In this document: positions 48,603 through 56,131 of the stretch, in pieces
Layout: each line of letters opens with the position of its first letter
Numbering within the stretch: position 1 is the stretch's first letter
From: Caloramator sp. E03
GTDB taxonomy: Bacteria > Bacillota > Clostridia > Clostridiales > Caloramatoraceae
Direction: 5' to 3'
DNA length: 64,000 nucleotides
Assembly: GCF_006016075.1 (NCBI RefSeq)
Contig: NZ_CP040093.1
Span: forward strand, 1,303,069-1,367,068
Position numbers and translations under genes: made by a program
Notes under the pieces: model-generated
Seen by the model: only the letters and a program-made list of their open reading frames with translations
Database searches by the model: none
What the model was told of the DNA's origin: nothing

Positions 48603-48866
48603 GCAAAACAAAAACCTTCTACCCCTTTGTACAGAGGCAGAAGGTTACTTCCGCGGTTCCACTCTGATTAGGCATAAAATGCCCATCTCATATCAGGTAC
48701 AATCATACCTTACCTCTGTAACGTGAGGATACGTAACAGCCTACTTAAATTCGGCCTAACACTCAAAGGGGCACTTGGGCCATAATCCTTCATAAAGCTC
48801 TCTCAGCCAATGGAGCTTCTCTCTGTCTGATTCATATAGCCTACTTTTCCTTATCATTGTGTTTAA
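48603..48866 (-). ncRNA. T-box riboswitch controlling the symporter gene
   Basis: A leader of about 260 nt on the minus strand. The T-box antiterminator core AGAGTGGAACCGCGG is at 48665-48651, followed by a terminator with AACCTTCT/AGAAGGTT arms (48613-48646) and TTTTTGTTTTG. Upstream lie Stem I/Stem III-like elements, including GGCCGAATTTAAGTAGGCT. T-boxes sense uncharged tRNA and allow read-through when it is scarce. I could not assign the specifier codon with confidence. Confidence 0.88.
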
Positions 48867-50349: not shown

Positions 50350-51075
50350 TTAGATTATATTATTCCTCTCCAAAAGTTCTTTATTGTTTACAACGCTCTC
50401 AAAGGGAGCGTCCTCTATAATAGTGTGCTCCTTTGAAAAAACTATTGCTCTTTTAAAAAGTCCCTTTACATAGTCAAAATCATGGGTTGCACATATTATA
50501 GTTTTTCCGCTTTCACTAAGTCTTAATAAAAGCTCCCCTAAAAATTTCTTATTCTTTGGGTCAAGCCCGTTCATAGGCTCATCGAGGAGTATTACCTGAG
50601 GGTTTACAGATAAAACTGCAGCTAAAGCAGTTTTTTTCATCTCCCCTCCGCTAAGGTTATAGGGAGCTCTGTCCCTTAAATCCCATATACCAAGAAGATT
50701 TAAGCAGTCAAAAACCCTTTTTTGCACCTCATCCTTTGAAAATCCCATCTGATACGGCCCAAAGGAGACCTCATCGTAAACCGTAGGGCAAAAAAGCTGA
50801 AGCTGAGGGTTTTGAAATAAAAATCCTATATTCTTATGAAAGGTTTTTGAAAATACTCCATCCTGCATTCTCTTTTCATCGATTAAAGTGCCATTAAAAA
50901 AGAACTGTCCCTCACTTTTAAATATTATTCCGCTAAGGAGCTTTAAGAGGGTAGACTTGCCGCAGCCATTAGGCCCAATTAATGCAACAGATTCTCCCTT
51001 TTCTATTTTTAAATTTATATTTTTTAGTGCAGTTACATCTTTATAGCTAAAACATATATTTTTAAGCTCTATCAT
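50350..51075 (-). CDS. cbiO: ECF transporter ATPase (CbiO-like)
   Basis: A 241-residue ATP-binding subunit of the energy-coupling factor importer for cobalt or nickel. Walker A GPNGCGKSTLLKL (about 36-48), Q-loop in FLFQNPQLQLF, signature NLSGGEMKKTALA (about 140-152), Walker B VILLDEPMNGLDPKNKK, and H-loop ATHDFDYV are all present. ATG at 51075 follows GGAGGTCTAA. It is the last gene of cbiM-cbiQ-cbiO, 24 nt after cbiQ. Confidence 0.93.
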   Translation of the reverse strand: MIELKNICFSYKDVTALKNINLKIEKGESVALIGPNGCGKSTLLKLLSGIIFKSEGQFFFNGTLIDEKRMQDGVFSKTFHKNIGFLFQNPQLQLFCPTVYDEVSFGPYQMGFSKDEVQKRVFDCLNLLGIWDLRDRAPYNLSGGEMKKTALAAVLSVNPQVILLDEPMNGLDPKNKKFLGELLLRLSESGKTIICATHDFDYVKGLFKRAIVFSKEHTIIEDAPFESVVNNKELLERNNII

Positions 51076-51099: not shown

Positions 51100-51885
51100 T
51101 TAAAAGAAAAAATAAGCGGATATCAAAAATATTATAACTAATATAAAAATAAAATCATATATATTAAGTTTAAGATTTATTTCCCTTTTGTATTCCCCTG
51201 TAAATCCTCTTAACTCCATAGCACTGTACATTTCATCAGACATAAGCTTTGATTGTATAAAAACATTTCCAATTATATTAGATAGTGAAGAATATTTTTT
51301 ATCTAACTTTCCAACAGTCCTGATTTTTAGTGCATAAAGCATATTTAGTGCCAAATCGCCAAGTATATATATATAAATTATTGCAATATCCAATATGAAA
51401 ATAAAAATATCAGGAACATAGATAAGCTTCAGGGAATTAGTTATATCCTTCCACTTTGTAGTAATGCTAAAAATATTTACTATAACAATATCTCCAAAAA
51501 CCTTTACAGGAATAATTAAGCTGTTAAAACTTTTATAGATAAATATCGATGGAAAAATCATTAAAAAAGAAAAGGCAAAAGCGGCAAAGCTAAAGTAAAG
51601 AACTTTGCCGCTGCTATTTTTAAGAAGCAGTGTACAAAATATTAAAAGCAAATCTAAAGATAATAGGAAAAATATATTTTTTGATAATGAAATAAAAATT
51701 ATCAATACAAAAACCGAAAGGAGCTTTAAAGCAGGATTAATACTATATAAAAATCCATGTCTTTCTATAAAATCCTGCCTTCTTATATTAGACGCTACAC
51801 TCAAAAGTGCTTTAACAGTCTTATCTGTAAATGTATCTTTATCTTCCTTTGGGGTAAAATCATCCTCTTTAAAAAGCCAATCCAT
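51100..51885 (-). CDS. cbiQ: ECF transporter transmembrane component (CbiQ-like)
   Basis: A 261-residue T component with about five hydrophobic segments. It links the metal-binding CbiM to the ATPase through helices with Ala-Arg-Gly-type coupling motifs; ELRGFTGEYKREINLK near residue 220 is such a cytoplasmic motif, and MLYALKIRTVGKLDKKYSSL the other. The N-terminal 40 residues are hydrophilic. ATG at 51885 follows AGGAGGATTT. The gap to cbiM is 8 nt, so the genes are translationally linked. Confidence 0.9.
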   Translation of the reverse strand: MDWLFKEDDFTPKEDKDTFTDKTVKALLSVASNIRRQDFIERHGFLYSINPALKLLSVFVLIIFISLSKNIFFLLSLDLLLIFCTLLLKNSSGKVLYFSFAAFAFSFLMIFPSIFIYKSFNSLIIPVKVFGDIVIVNIFSITTKWKDITNSLKLIYVPDIFIFILDIAIIYIYILGDLALNMLYALKIRTVGKLDKKYSSLSNIIGNVFIQSKLMSDEMYSAMELRGFTGEYKREINLKLNIYDFIFILVIIFLISAYFFF

Positions 51886-51893
51886 AAATCCTC

Positions 51894-52862
51894 CTATTTT
51901 TCATGTTTTAAATATTTCATATTTATAAGCTTAAATATTAAAAATATAATTGCTATACCTGCTGCTGCTGATATTATATACCCTAAAGTCTCTGAAAGTC
52001 CAGAAACAGTGTAATCTGGCATTAAAGAGTTAAAGCTTATCCCTTTTTCCATTCCCTTTGGAACATATCCTAAAAGGCTTACAACTTCTTCAGTTCCCCA
52101 TTCTCCCCAAGCTGTACCCTGGGCTAAAAGCCCAAGGGGGCAAAGTATAACCATAGCTATAAGGAGTATATATAAAGGCTTATAGGATACACTTCCATCA
52201 TATACTGTATCTGGAGATACCTTTTTAACATAAGCATAAGCAAGTGATGTTACAAGGCCTTCAACAACTCCTGCAACCAAAAGGTGAGGTATCATCATAG
52301 CAGGTATTGAAACTGAAAGAGGATATGGGCAGTATAGAGGAAGTCCTGCTGCATCCTTAAATAAAGCAGGCTGAATGCCAAATTCAACTGCTGCAAAGAA
52401 TGCTGCTAAGTTAAGACCAATATATGCTGCAATAAAGGATGCTATATACTCTCCTTTTTCCTTTTTAAAATATTTCTTTAAAATAGAAAATGTATAATAT
52501 CCACTAAAGGGCATTATAAAGGCCATATTAAAGCAGTTTGCTCCAAAGGCAAGTACTCCTCCGTCTCCAAAGAACAGCGCCTGAACTAAAAGTGATGCAG
52601 TAACTGCAATACATGCACTATAGGGCCCTAAAAGTATTGCAACTAAAACTGCACCTACCGCATGACCTGTTGTCCCTCCAGGAAGGGGAAGATTAAACAT
52701 CATAATCAAAAATGAAAAGGCAGCTCCTATGCCAAGCATTGGTATCTTTTTTCTTGGGATTTCGTCTTTAATCTTTTTTACAGCTCTTCTCCATGCTGGA
52801 ATCATAGCCGCCCCAAAGACAGCACAGGTTGACGGGCTAAGGTAATTATCAGGTATATGCAT
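51894..52862 (-). CDS. cbiM: ECF cobalt/nickel transporter substrate-binding component, CbiM fused to a CbiN-like (PDGLE) domain
   Basis: A 322-residue membrane protein. The mature N-terminus MHIPDNYLSPSTC is diagnostic: in CbiM/NikM the N-terminal Met-His2 motif enters the metal site, with other ligands such as His in PGGTTGHAVGAV. The C-terminal part (about 240-322: LLAQGTAWGEWGTEEVVSLLGYVPKGMEKG, then a final TM) corresponds to the PDGLE/CbiN accessory module, here fused. I chose ATG at 52862, after GGAGGTGTTTTT. Cobalt versus nickel cannot be separated by sequence alone. Its leader holds a twin-hairpin attenuator, described separately. Confidence 0.93.
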   Translation of the reverse strand: MHIPDNYLSPSTCAVFGAAMIPAWRRAVKKIKDEIPRKKIPMLGIGAAFSFLIMMFNLPLPGGTTGHAVGAVLVAILLGPYSACIAVTASLLVQALFFGDGGVLAFGANCFNMAFIMPFSGYYTFSILKKYFKKEKGEYIASFIAAYIGLNLAAFFAAVEFGIQPALFKDAAGLPLYCPYPLSVSIPAMMIPHLLVAGVVEGLVTSLAYAYVKKVSPDTVYDGSVSYKPLYILLIAMVILCPLGLLAQGTAWGEWGTEEVVSLLGYVPKGMEKGISFNSLMPDYTVSGLSETLGYIISAAAGIAIIFLIFKLINMKYLKHEK

Positions 52863-52870
52863 AAAAACAC

Positions 52871-52902
52871 CTCCAAAAAATAAAAAGGCAGCAAAAGCTA
52901 CC
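52871..52902 (-). terminator. Intrinsic terminator in the cbiM leader
   Basis: Minus strand: GGTAGC-TTTT-GCTGCC (52902-52887) followed by TTTTTATTTTTTGGAG. Its 5' arm GGTA is also the 3' arm of the second CC-ACGAA-GG hairpin, so the two structures exclude each other. Confidence 0.85.
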
Positions 52903-52946
52903 TTCGTGGTATAATTCAAATTATTAAGCCTTCGTGGCTTTATTCG
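52887..52946 (-). promoter_or_regulatory. Twin-hairpin attenuator leader of cbiMQO
   Basis: RNA from about 52946. Hairpin 1 AAGCC-ACGAA-GGCUU (52940-52926), 14-nt AU linker, hairpin 2 UACC-ACGAA-GGUA (52911-52899), then the terminator that shares GGUA. Both hairpins have the same five-base loop and the same CC/GG closing pairs. Stabilising hairpin 2 would prevent the terminator. The whole leader is about 85 nt to the cbiM start. I do not recognise it as a standard cobalamin, NiCo or guanidine-II riboswitch. Confidence 0.75.
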
Positions 52947-52952
52947 TATATA

Positions 52953-52981
52953 ATTATATAATAAATTGGTATTATTTTCAA
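52953..52981 (-). promoter_or_regulatory. Promoter of cbiMQO
   Basis: Minus strand: -35 TTGAAA (52981-52976), 17-bp spacer, -10 TATAAT (52958-52953). Predicted start at about 52946, so hairpin 1 begins within about 7 nt of the RNA 5' end. Confidence 0.82.
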
Positions 52982-53101
52982 CCATTTAAAAAGCCATAAT
53001 TATAAGCCCCTATATTATAAATCACCAAATAATGAACTTTGAAGCTTATACAATCAAGTATTGCTATCTATTGATTTAAGTATATATTTAAAAACTACAA
53101 T

Positions 53102-54121
53102 TTAATTACATAAATATGCTCTACTATTTTTTAAAAAATATTCCCTCTCTTCCTTGTATCCAGCTCTTCTAATTAGCTTATCTACAAACTCACTTTCTTC
53201 CCAATTTTTAGTTCTCATATAATAGCTTGATGAAATATCATAAAAATCCTGCGGGAAAAGTAAATATCCATAAAGTACATTAAGTTCTTCACTGCTTATT
53301 TTTCTTTCTGATGTGTATGCATCAATTATATTATAAGCCATTTCAATATTCCATCCATTATGTTTTATAGCTCTTGTAATCATATTACAAATATCATGGC
53401 AAGGAATATCGATTATGCAGTAATCAAAATCAATAAAATATACATTGTTATCGTTTCCTATAATTATATTGTGATGAGCAAGATCATGATGGCAAAGAGT
53501 ATAAATACTTTGGCATAAATTATTATAACATGAGGATTCAAGATGAACTAATGCATCGTTAGCACAGCTTATATAATAATCTGTATACTGAAGATATAAT
53601 ATGTCAAATTCGCTTTTATTAACATGCATTAAAGCTATATCCTTATATTTTTTCATATCTTCTATCCTGCTTTTAAATTTATCAATTATTCTTCCAAGCT
53701 GGTTTCTTACATTATTTTTAAATTCAATTTCAAGTCCTGCATTATGAAACCTTGCAAGTCCTTTAGCTGACATTGAAAGATCTATTGGATTTTCAAAAAC
53801 ACATTCCCTTCCTTCTATTAAATCCAAAACCACATAGATTCCGCCTTCATATTCTACATAAGGCTTTCCATCAGTACTCAACCTGAAATTTATTATATAA
53901 GGGTATTTCTTCCTTACAGCATTTAAGGAATTATATATAAAATTTAGCGTATCTGTATTATACTCAACTTTTTTTAATATCTTAAAACCTTCATTTGTAT
54001 TTAAAATATATATTGATCGTACAGGGGATGCATCTTCAACCAAAAAATCAAACTTATCAAAAAGTTTTGTATCAAGCATGTAATTTGACAGATATGCTTT
54101 GTCCCTATACCTGTACTCCAT
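53102..54121 (-). CDS. CotS-family spore coat protein (kinase-like), copy 2
   Basis: A 339-residue kinase-fold CotS-type protein. The catalytic loop TLCHHDLAHHNIIIGNDN and metal site FIDFDYCIIDIPCHD are intact (about 210-240). The N-terminal lobe shows the family's LNTNEGFKILKKVEYN and LIEGRECVFENPIDL. ATG at 54121 follows GGAGGTGTAGGA, just 2 nt after the preceding gene's stop. It is the last of three tandem CotS-type genes transcribed together. Its probable partners are the two flanking glycosyltransferases (coat glycan assembly, inference). Confidence 0.9.
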   Translation of the reverse strand: MEYRYRDKAYLSNYMLDTKLFDKFDFLVEDASPVRSIYILNTNEGFKILKKVEYNTDTLNFIYNSLNAVRKKYPYIINFRLSTDGKPYVEYEGGIYVVLDLIEGRECVFENPIDLSMSAKGLARFHNAGLEIEFKNNVRNQLGRIIDKFKSRIEDMKKYKDIALMHVNKSEFDILYLQYTDYYISCANDALVHLESSCYNNLCQSIYTLCHHDLAHHNIIIGNDNNVYFIDFDYCIIDIPCHDICNMITRAIKHNGWNIEMAYNIIDAYTSERKISSEELNVLYGYLLFPQDFYDISSSYYMRTKNWEESEFVDKLIRRAGYKEEREYFLKNSRAYLCN

Positions 54122-54123
54122 TC

Positions 54124-54984
54124 CTACACCTCCATTAAATTTGATATCTTCTCAATTTGATATACTCTTTTAAACTTATCTATATATTCTTCATCATCTT
54201 TACTATTTTCCATATATTTCTTTATTGTTTTTAAAGTATAATATGGAAAAGAAACATAGGATTTTATTATTTTATCTGTGCCATTATCAATTTTCCTAAT
54301 GCTGCTGTATTTTTTAATAATATCTTTATAAACCCTTTTATCCATTGAATCTTCAATCGAATGTTTTATAAGCAGTGCTACATCTTCTATACACAGGTTA
54401 TATCCCATATCAAATACCTTTACTATTAAAGGCCTTCCATTTTTCACAACAGCAGTGCAGCTTGATGCAGAATTTATACATACTTCCTTTTTCTTCATGC
54501 TATCTTCCAAGGCCTTTAAATATTCTTTTGATTTAAATATCTTCTGACAAGCCTTTGCCCTTATTATAAGCTCATCAAGATACGGCATTACATACTCTTC
54601 AAATTGTGATAGATTTTCTTTATTTGAAACTTCATTTTTAAATCTTTCAAGTTTTGAGATGAGTGCTCTGTATTTTTCTGCTCTTTTTCCCCAGTAAACC
54701 TTTGCTTTTATCCCCTGAGGCTGAACAAACCCTTCAGCACAGTTATGAAAATGAGCAAGCATTGCTGCCATAATCATTATATTTTTCTTATTATCAAGTC
54801 TAAAATTTTCGCTTCCATACTCATTTATATTTATAAATAATCCATTAGTATTTTTTGTGTATATCTTCCCATTTTCTACAATATTAATTCTAATTAAACT
54901 TTTAAACCCATTTGATACAGCATAATTTATAATTGCATTGGCCGATAGAATTTCCCATTCCTTTGCATCAACTAAAATCTCCAT
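54124..54984 (-). CDS. Divergent CotS-like protein without kinase catalytic residues
   Basis: A 286-residue protein placed between two intact CotS genes and sharing their length and helical pattern (MAAMLAHFHNCAEGFVQP matches the LANFHLSARGF helix). Where CotS proteins have LCHHD...HN and DFDYC, this one has NSASSCTAVVKNG and VKVFDMGYN, so both phosphotransfer motifs are lost. It is probably a pseudokinase-like structural coat protein or regulator. ATG at 54984 follows GGAGGGGCAAT and overlaps the upstream cotS by 17 nt. It is not a pseudogene: the frame is open with good RBS and tight operon packing. Confidence 0.82.
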   Translation of the reverse strand: MEILVDAKEWEILSANAIINYAVSNGFKSLIRINIVENGKIYTKNTNGLFININEYGSENFRLDNKKNIMIMAAMLAHFHNCAEGFVQPQGIKAKVYWGKRAEKYRALISKLERFKNEVSNKENLSQFEEYVMPYLDELIIRAKACQKIFKSKEYLKALEDSMKKKEVCINSASSCTAVVKNGRPLIVKVFDMGYNLCIEDVALLIKHSIEDSMDKRVYKDIIKKYSSIRKIDNGTDKIIKSYVSFPYYTLKTIKKYMENSKDDEEYIDKFKRVYQIEKISNLMEV

Positions 54985-55990
54985 ATTGCCCCTCCTTTAG
55001 TCTTTGTTCAAATTCCCTTAAAAAGCTCATCCTTTCTTTACTATCTTCTACAATTCTTTTCAGCTTTCTTAAAAAAAACTCCTCTTCCCAAGGCTGTTTC
55101 TCAACATAATACTGAAGCCCTACCTGCCAAAAATCCTGTGGGAATTGCATAAAGCAAAAGATTAAATATATCTCATCATTACTTATAGGTATCTTTTCAT
55201 AATACACTGAAAGTATAAAATCCAAAATTTCAAAATCCCAATTACCATATTTTAAGTTTCTTATAATAATGCTTGATAGATCGTGAAGGTTAGTATCTAA
55301 TATACAGTAATCAAAATCTATCATGTACATATCAAGATTTGATGTAATAAGAAAATTATGATTTGCAGTATCGTGATGGCAAAGATAAGATAACTCCTTA
55401 TGCCTTTCCATAATTTCAAAGTATTTTGATTCTTCAAGATCCTTAATAGCCTTAAGCCCTTGTCTATAATGAGAATCAAAATATTTTAAATATATGTTAT
55501 CAAAATCAGAAAGCTTATCCTTGGATTTAATAAGTGCTTTAAAATATAAAAGCTCATCACATCTTTTCTTAAACCTTTTAATCCATTTCCCATAATAATT
55601 TCTGTTCTTTATATAAAAATCTATCTTAAATCCCATCGATGCTATATGAAGATTGCTTAAAGTATTAACACACATTTTAAGCTCAACAGGATTTTTAAAA
55701 TCAGCTTCCCTGGAATCAATCCACTTACACAAATATCCATAGCCTTCATTTACTTTTATAAAATTTTCTCCATTTTTTGTTTTAATGGGTGGAAGTACCC
55801 CTTCAAACCCTCTTTTATATAAATAATCTATTGCACTTACTATAAACCTGAACTGATCTATATCATAATTTGAGGATTTAAAGCACATATATTCATTGTC
55901 AGTTTTAATCCTAAAAGCATTTTTAATTTTTTCAATCTCATAAACTTCAATTTTATAATTATTTTGAATAAGCTCCTTTATTCCATCCAT
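54968..55990 (-). CDS. CotS-family spore coat protein (kinase-like), copy 3
   Basis: A 340-residue kinase-fold CotS-type protein, first in the three-gene run. Catalytic loop SYLCHHDTANHNFLITSN and MIDFDYCILDTNLHD are intact. The KWIDSREADFKNPVELKM segment corresponds to the hinge region WIEGRECDFK of copy 1. I chose ATG at 55990, with GGAG about nine bases upstream, over an in-frame TTG eight codons earlier. It is divergent from a glycosyltransferase gene 140 bp away, so both may share a late sporulation control region. Confidence 0.9.
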   Translation of the reverse strand: MDGIKELIQNNYKIEVYEIEKIKNAFRIKTDNEYMCFKSSNYDIDQFRFIVSAIDYLYKRGFEGVLPPIKTKNGENFIKVNEGYGYLCKWIDSREADFKNPVELKMCVNTLSNLHIASMGFKIDFYIKNRNYYGKWIKRFKKRCDELLYFKALIKSKDKLSDFDNIYLKYFDSHYRQGLKAIKDLEESKYFEIMERHKELSYLCHHDTANHNFLITSNLDMYMIDFDYCILDTNLHDLSSIIIRNLKYGNWDFEILDFILSVYYEKIPISNDEIYLIFCFMQFPQDFWQVGLQYYVEKQPWEEEFFLRKLKRIVEDSKERMSFLREFEQRLKEGQYGDFS

Positions 55991-56131
55991 CCTATCATCT
56001 CCAGGGTAAAACAAATTCTATTTTATAATATGAAAGCAGTAACTAAATGTGATAAGAAATGAGATTTTATGCACAATATAATAAAAATTATAATATTAAT
56101 AATATATAGGCTAAATTGGAGAGTGAATCAG

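Follow-up and report, generated by a model that had tools for sequence, protein, structure and literature searches.

The window, meaning the whole 64,000-nucleotide stretch of DNA that was analysed, comes from Caloramator sp. E03, a thermophilic relative of Clostridium whose genome of 2.98 Mb is close to that of Caloramator quimbayensis (CbiM identity 95%). Its minus strand carries an operon for an ECF nickel/cobalt transporter, preceded by a compact leader, with the following features:

52953-52981, minus strand: sigma-70-type promoter TTGAAA-17-TATAAT, 11 of 12 consensus positions (-35 TTGAAA at 52981-52976, -10 TATAAT at 52958-52953, 17 bp between them)
52926-52940, minus strand: hairpin P1, AAGCC-ACGAA-GGCTT, conserved with covariation
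52899-52911, minus strand: hairpin P2, the putative antiterminator, TACC-ACGAA-GGTA, conserved, -2.9 kcal/mol
52875-52905, minus strand: intrinsic terminator, stem 52905-52884 followed by a U-rich tract, -12.0 kcal/mol
51894-52862, minus strand: cbiM/nikM, S-component of an ECF nickel/cobalt transporter (NF005598, 512.5 bits against a cut-off of 401)
51100-51885, minus strand: cbiQ, ECF T-component (TIGR02454, 68.3 bits, under the cut-off of 111.8)
50350-51075, minus strand: cbiO, ECF ATPase (ECF ATPase models at up to 208.5 bits, under their cut-offs)

The leader region as a whole occupies 52981-52862, ending at the cbiM ATG (52862), and the 5' arm of the terminator is the 3' half of P2. Assuming that transcription begins about 7 nt past the -10 box, the predicted leader would measure approximately 84 nt. 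The sequence-only reading had described precisely this architecture, with a near-consensus promoter, two hairpins sharing one loop, a terminator borrowing the 3' arm of the second hairpin and about 85 nt from start site to AUG, and each of these elements was recovered. When an 86-nt leader was folded and compared with shuffled sequences, a z score of -3.1 was obtained, with 2 of 200 shuffles folding equally well. The string CCACGAAGG occurs six times in the genome (18 times for a reversed-pattern control), and a pair of copies within 30 bp is found genome-wide only at the cbiM leader. Elsewhere in the window, a T-box leader lies at 48630-48866 on the minus strand (103.4 bits, above the gathering score), and three consecutive minus-strand ORFs (53102-56014) are situated upstream of the cbiM promoter, that at 53102-54121 encoding a CotS-family spore coat protein.

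Searches against Rfam 15 returned only unrelated sub-threshold matches for the leader, the best being SQ1002 (21.6 bits, where the gathering score is 128). In the other loci scanned, no Rfam match covered the motif. The Rfam model of the cobalamin riboswitch had no match in the window, in 20 of the 80 CbiM loci considered below or at the further motif loci scanned, and that of the NiCo riboswitch had none in the window. These results agree with the earlier suggestion that the loop does not belong to the cobalamin, NiCo, Mn (yybP) or guanidine-II families. The NiCo (czcD) riboswitch, a larger aptamer residing on exporter genes, shares the cobalt/nickel link with the present leader but is not matched by it. 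Another candidate RNA, TwoAYGGAY, which is listed in a table of PMC2864571, is named in the leader by no Rfam match at E <= 10. TwoAYGGAY also consists of two hairpins with a repeated loop, but that loop is AYGGAY and differs from the one found here.

The twin hairpins recur in relatives. Among 17 genomes of the family, 14 contain a CbiM relative, and all 10 that share the CbiM type of the window have twin hairpins upstream of cbiM. In two further loci (L012 in genome G003 and L013 in G001), which precede a different CbiM, a single hairpin CCC-ACGAA-GGG is present and pairs with a downstream copy as a terminator. Considering these loci together with sites where no P1 is recognised, two hairpins are not strictly required everywhere. 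A scanner for two A-Y-G-A-R hairpins with an overlapping terminator was run on both strands of the best 80 of 539 CbiM loci (471 kb), yielding 18 sites, each directly upstream of cbiM on the same strand; the rest of these loci gave no site on either strand. With 59 permuted orders of the loop letters, 56 gave no site in the 80 loci, and the three that did (8, 8 and 1 sites) were patterns overlapping the true loop. The majority of these best 80 of 539 loci lack the motif and carry other leaders.

Several such leaders were noticed by eye. In eight loci from Lacrimispora and other organisms (L061, L065, L066, L068, L092, L097, L101 and L107), a conserved TATCCYCC...GGGCTTG stretch stands upstream of cbiM, directly upstream of a TATAAT-like box, and may serve this importer as another kind of operator. 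A sigma-54-like TGGCAT-N5-TTGC element, often following an inverted repeat, precedes cbiM in seven others (L050, L059, L064, L080, L082, L087 and L112). At L005/L026 (G008), L028 and L278 (G015), stops or frame breaks interrupt the motif-bearing cbiM or ECF S-component gene, reflecting either assembly error or decay.

Model-based searches extended the distribution. With one model (R2), 49 of 225 genomes of the order gave a match at E <= 0.1; with another (R3), matches at E <= 0.05 were obtained in 68 of 218 genomes of the order, spread over 31 of 56 genera. Among 391 genomes drawn from the class, R3 matched 28 at the same threshold, several of which appear by eye to be chance. The sequence-only reading had proposed a model search of clostridial upstream regions, naming recurrent twin hairpins, compensatory stem changes and invariant loops as support for a twin-hairpin attenuator in which P2 excludes the terminator. 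The hairpins do recur, with compensatory changes in their stems and near-constant loops.

Across 33 distinct P1 hairpins, all with a pentaloop because they were chosen as such, 93.1% of cells are paired and two-sided changes occur in all seven pairs. Their 77 two-sided changes compare with 22.7 in shuffles, none of 500 shuffles being as high, and slid-partner controls reached at most 15. Pairing amounts to 99.2% in 12 Clostridium leaders and to 92.1%, with 71 two-sided changes, in 29 mixed leaders. In the family of the window, 91.1% of cells are paired and the covariation score was reached by none of 500 shuffles, while the number of pairs with two-sided change did not exceed that in shuffles (137 of 500 as high). 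These pairing values are inflated, given that hairpins were picked for this loop and some stem; related species likewise inflate the shuffle tests, and the slid controls guard against kinship only, not against selection bias. P2 is less variable than P1. The terminator helix, which is 94.6% paired, changes little between sites and accordingly shows little covariation.

Over the relatives as a whole, near constancy is confined to the pentaloop with its innermost pairs, and the outer stem varies with pairing kept. The pentaloop consensus is A-N-G-A-R, from which the leader is here called the ANGAR leader. At 92 assigned sites, the P2 loop reads ACGAA in 79, ACGAG in seven, ATGAA in two and AAGAA in two, with two unread; the P1 loop within the model match reads ACGAA in 46, ACGAG in 23, ATGAA in seven, AAGAA in three and otherwise in 13. 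These 13 comprise one ACGAT, four sites whose proper P1 lies upstream or one base off (L138, L142, L183 and L285), two one-letter variants (L177 and L236) and six sites without a recognised P1 within 260 nt (L156, L158, L235, L244, L291 and, with an isolated candidate, L290). In all, 84 of the 92 sites have a recognisable P1 whose loop reads A-N-G-A-[AGT], and a wider look placed a strong P1 further upstream at L138, L142, L180 and L183. The P1-P2 linker measures 9-62 nt (median 37) in the model matches and well over 60 nt where P1 lies further up. At five sites, P2 consists of just two G-C pairs around the loop.

Of 193 matches listed, 127 together with L285 (128 in total) were taken for merging, after removal of duplicates of one place and of matches below about 28 bits. 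One match under this level was kept (L047, 27.6), two were dropped after reading (L243, 27.8; L245, 27.7), and L098, L074, L088, L192 and L201 were dropped by score, though real-looking by eye. Merging identical cores left 106 distinct matches, and gene classes were assigned by hand from sequence signatures of the first ORF. A nickel-linked gene lies downstream of 93 of the 106. The first gene encodes CbiM/NikM at 49, a share inflated by the initial training of the models on cbiM leaders; an ECF S-component at 18; FmdE at nine plus one recognised by eye (L247); a NikB-type permease at four; NicO/NixA at three; CbiQ at three; DUF3842-CooT at two; and LarC, LarE, a FecB-type binding protein and a 59-aa protein with a His-rich tail at one each. 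No ORF was called at seven sites, including a cbiM leader (L028) and an ECF S-component leader (L278) with broken frames, and six sites have some other first gene. Family-model cut-offs were exceeded by NicO, DUF3842, CooT, FmdE, HoxN/NixA, LarC, the ECF S-component and a peptide/nickel-type binding protein; NikB and LarE (an 80-aa piece) fell below NCBIfam cut-offs, as did the CbiQ of L129 below its Pfam cut-off.

One operon reads, from its translations, DUF3842-CooT-ECF S-component-methyltransferase-FmdE (L287), others join FmdE to a NikABCD-type transporter (L292) or a FecCD-type transporter (L279), and cbiM-cbiQ-cbiO-larE-larB-larC is found in Youngiibacter (L294) and at L114. LarC, LarE and CooT are established nickel-handling proteins, and the Pfam name of PF01969 is Ni_insertion. 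A protein search for FmdE that was blind to the motif found the gene in 6 of 17 family genomes, in each case with the twin motif upstream. The predicted connection with nickel or cobalt import is upheld by these 93 of 106 matches and widened to a nickel regulon.

No cobalamin-synthesis gene stands first at the tallied sites. In two genomes (G006 and G008), a cobalamin riboswitch sits on a distant CbiM paralogue, whereas the MHIPDNYL-type CbiM has an ANGAR leader. Cobalamin riboswitches also control CbiM-type importers, as in the Clostridium difficile example given in the available text of PMC11477304, but they are large aptamers. Judging from these two genomes and the company of genes, nickel is likelier than cobalt as the signal.

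Some matches appear to be chance or unrelated (L206/L240, L223, L225, L226, L227, L234, L242, L243, L245, L295, L205 and L209-L211). Among them, the second match in the genome of the window (L295, G000:C1:2805244) was judged to be chance, being a lone hairpin with no terminator seen. Three others (L223, L225 and L227) contain a recurring element, GTGCCACGATGGCAC, whose hairpin is GCC-AATTT-GGC; the element is present in several genomes and matches R3 in unrelated contexts. The match at L293 precedes a mobile element, and that at L190 shows P2 and a T-run before a 321-aa protein that matches nothing in Pfam or NCBIfam and has no known nickel link.

The energies bear on the sign of control. In the window, P2 is worth -2.9 against -12.0 kcal/mol for the terminator; medians over the 84 evaluable of the 106 leaders are -3.0 kcal/mol for P2 and -14.1 kcal/mol for the segment from P2 to the T-run, and the minimum-energy fold of that segment retains P2 in 10 of the 84. 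Because P2 is weak relative to the overlapping terminator, termination should be the default and P2 would need to be held. Since importers are switched on when P2 is held, whatever holds it should report scarcity; a sensor protein in its metal-free state or a metabolite that marks shortage would have the required sign, and Ni2+ itself the opposite one. The initial proposal that a metal or cobalamin stabilises the hairpins is consequently disfavoured, as such a ligand would have the wrong sign for an importer of its own metal; for cobalamin, the Rfam-scanned motif loci moreover lack its riboswitch, which in G006 and G008 sits on a different CbiM paralogue.

The preferred reading, to which a probability of roughly 70% is assigned, is that the ANGAR twin-hairpin leader is a conserved cis-regulatory RNA family of Clostridia that probably mediates nickel-shortage antitermination through a loop-binding, trans-acting reader. 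Recurrence, covariation, the constant loop, terminator overlap and gene association were established at the level of sequence, and we infer the sign (nickel-poor meaning on), nickel over cobalt and a protein as reader. In the proposed sequence of events, P1 would form near the 5' end of the RNA and P2 would lose to the overlapping terminator, giving termination by default; the putative reader, which should act under nickel shortage and would most probably be an RNA-binding nickel sensor in its metal-free state, would bind the ANGAR pentaloops of both P1 and P2, and P2, once held, would block the terminator and permit transcription of the operon. Near-constant loops on both hairpins, variable linkers and loop self-complementarity that is not kept together favour separate recognition of each hairpin. 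With slightly less confidence, the leaders may be regarded as defining a clostridial regulon, not described before, that responds to nickel shortage at the RNA level and in which the ANGAR pair and a putative nickel sensor (a metal-free RNA-binding protein or a directly bound small molecule) would switch on several unrelated types of nickel transporter, LarC/LarE, CooT, FmdE and an uncharacterised ECF S-component with a methyltransferase, the last two perhaps serving a nickel-carrying compound.

FmdE was considered as a general reader and refuted, as it is absent from the genome of the window.

The most serious alternative, although unlikely, is a true riboswitch in which the ANGAR hairpins directly bind a small molecule accumulating in nickel shortage and thereby hold P2. 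Near-constant loops, a compact leader and the presence of P1 at most sites would suit this explanation, and guanidine-II, as described in the available text of PMC5486947, provides a precedent for two tiny hairpins sufficing. However, the hairpins are small and variable, the linkers range from 9 nt to lengths far above 60 nt, and single hairpins occur at a few sites. Loop self-complementarity is also lost, ATGAA and AAGAA loops occurring even in combination with ACGAA, and kissing loops of the guanidine-II kind were rejected on the same grounds, complementarity between the loops not being kept. The sole concrete ligand candidate, the LarC substrate, fails as an obligatory or general one: LarC is missing from 10 of the 68 motif genomes, six with strong motif matches at E <= 6.7e-6 (G017, G026, G076, G078, G183 and G184) and four with weak ones at E 0.003 to 0.03 (G174, G175, G196 and G221). 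The motif does show an association with LarC (58 of 68 motif genomes against 73 of 150 others; Fisher p = 2.3e-7, with species not independent), and eight lar loci of family genomes show no motif in the stretch examined, which mostly starts inside larE.

A canonical ANTAR protein acting as reader, as EutV does on eut leaders, is improbable. The layout is alike: in the available parts of PMC3369931 and PMC8934654, ANTAR-target leaders (eut, nasF, amiE) have two small hairpins with similar loops, the second overlapping an intrinsic terminator, and binding of the factor causes antitermination; one ANTAR protein is also encoded in the genome of the window. Nevertheless, ANTAR targets are hexaloops with A1 and G4 that serve ethanolamine or nitrogen genes, in contrast to the A-N-G-A-R pentaloop, with G third, on nickel genes, and the linkers here vary over 9-62 nt and more, whereas a 20-nt extension of the eut linker abolished antitermination according to the same available text. 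The single ANTAR protein of the genome adjoins an apparent glutamine synthetase gene; no ANTAR-type twin hexaloop with stems of at least 4 pairs lies upstream of glnA in that genome, which is weak evidence.

The two remaining explanations can be set aside as very improbable. In the first, the protein-operator alternative of the sequence-only reading, a metalloregulator would bind DNA at two CCTTCGTGG copies and the hairpins would be incidental; two identical 9-mers do stand near the promoter, but the stems covary as RNA pairs, the distance between copies varies widely, and the copies lie downstream of the promoter inside the transcribed leader, with P2 overlapping the terminator, and the idea is rejected. 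In the second, a guanidine-II (mini-ykkC) variant would sense guanidine, with the importers induced to feed a nickel-dependent guanidine hydrolase; the twin similar hairpins, the ACGA loop core and the variable linker are indeed those of guanidine-II in the available text of PMC5486947, yet guanidine-II has ACGR tetraloops with conserved C-G cross pairing, whereas the ANGAR loop is one base longer, has C, U or A at position 2 and is closed by C-G or U-A, five Rfam matches at E <= 10 in 52800-53050 do not include the family, and the tallied first genes include no guanidine export or modification gene, neither an SMR exporter (emrE) nor a carboxylase.

The ANGAR leaders form an apparently undescribed family, in which the antitermination proposed for the twin hairpins would be joined to a loop and a regulon that are both new and to a putative reader. 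Searches of open-licence PMC papers found nickel uptake nowhere described as controlled by an RNA leader of this kind, although it may have been named in a supplement or a closed paper; searches by term in the available main text of PMC11109978, PMC8632094 and PMC6429828, and the available text of PMC11477304 and PMC2864571, gave no description of it. The regulon gives nickel-related roles to genes whose function is unclear, namely those for the PF12822 ECF S-component, FmdE, DUF3842 and the linked SAM methyltransferase, and the leaders separate nickel from cobalt ECF importers. The ANGAR hairpin also offers a defined bait for a new metal sensor or a new class of small riboswitch.

Two minor observations concern genes under these leaders. 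A SAM methyltransferase-like gene follows the ECF S-component in five loci (L284, L286, L287, L290 and L291), and in L287 FmdE follows as well. In L072 (1721-2240), a second twin motif precedes a small gene that lies directly upstream of cbiM and encodes 59 aa with the C-terminal sequence HSHEHVHTHE; its product has no Pfam match and is a possible small metal-binding or sensor protein.
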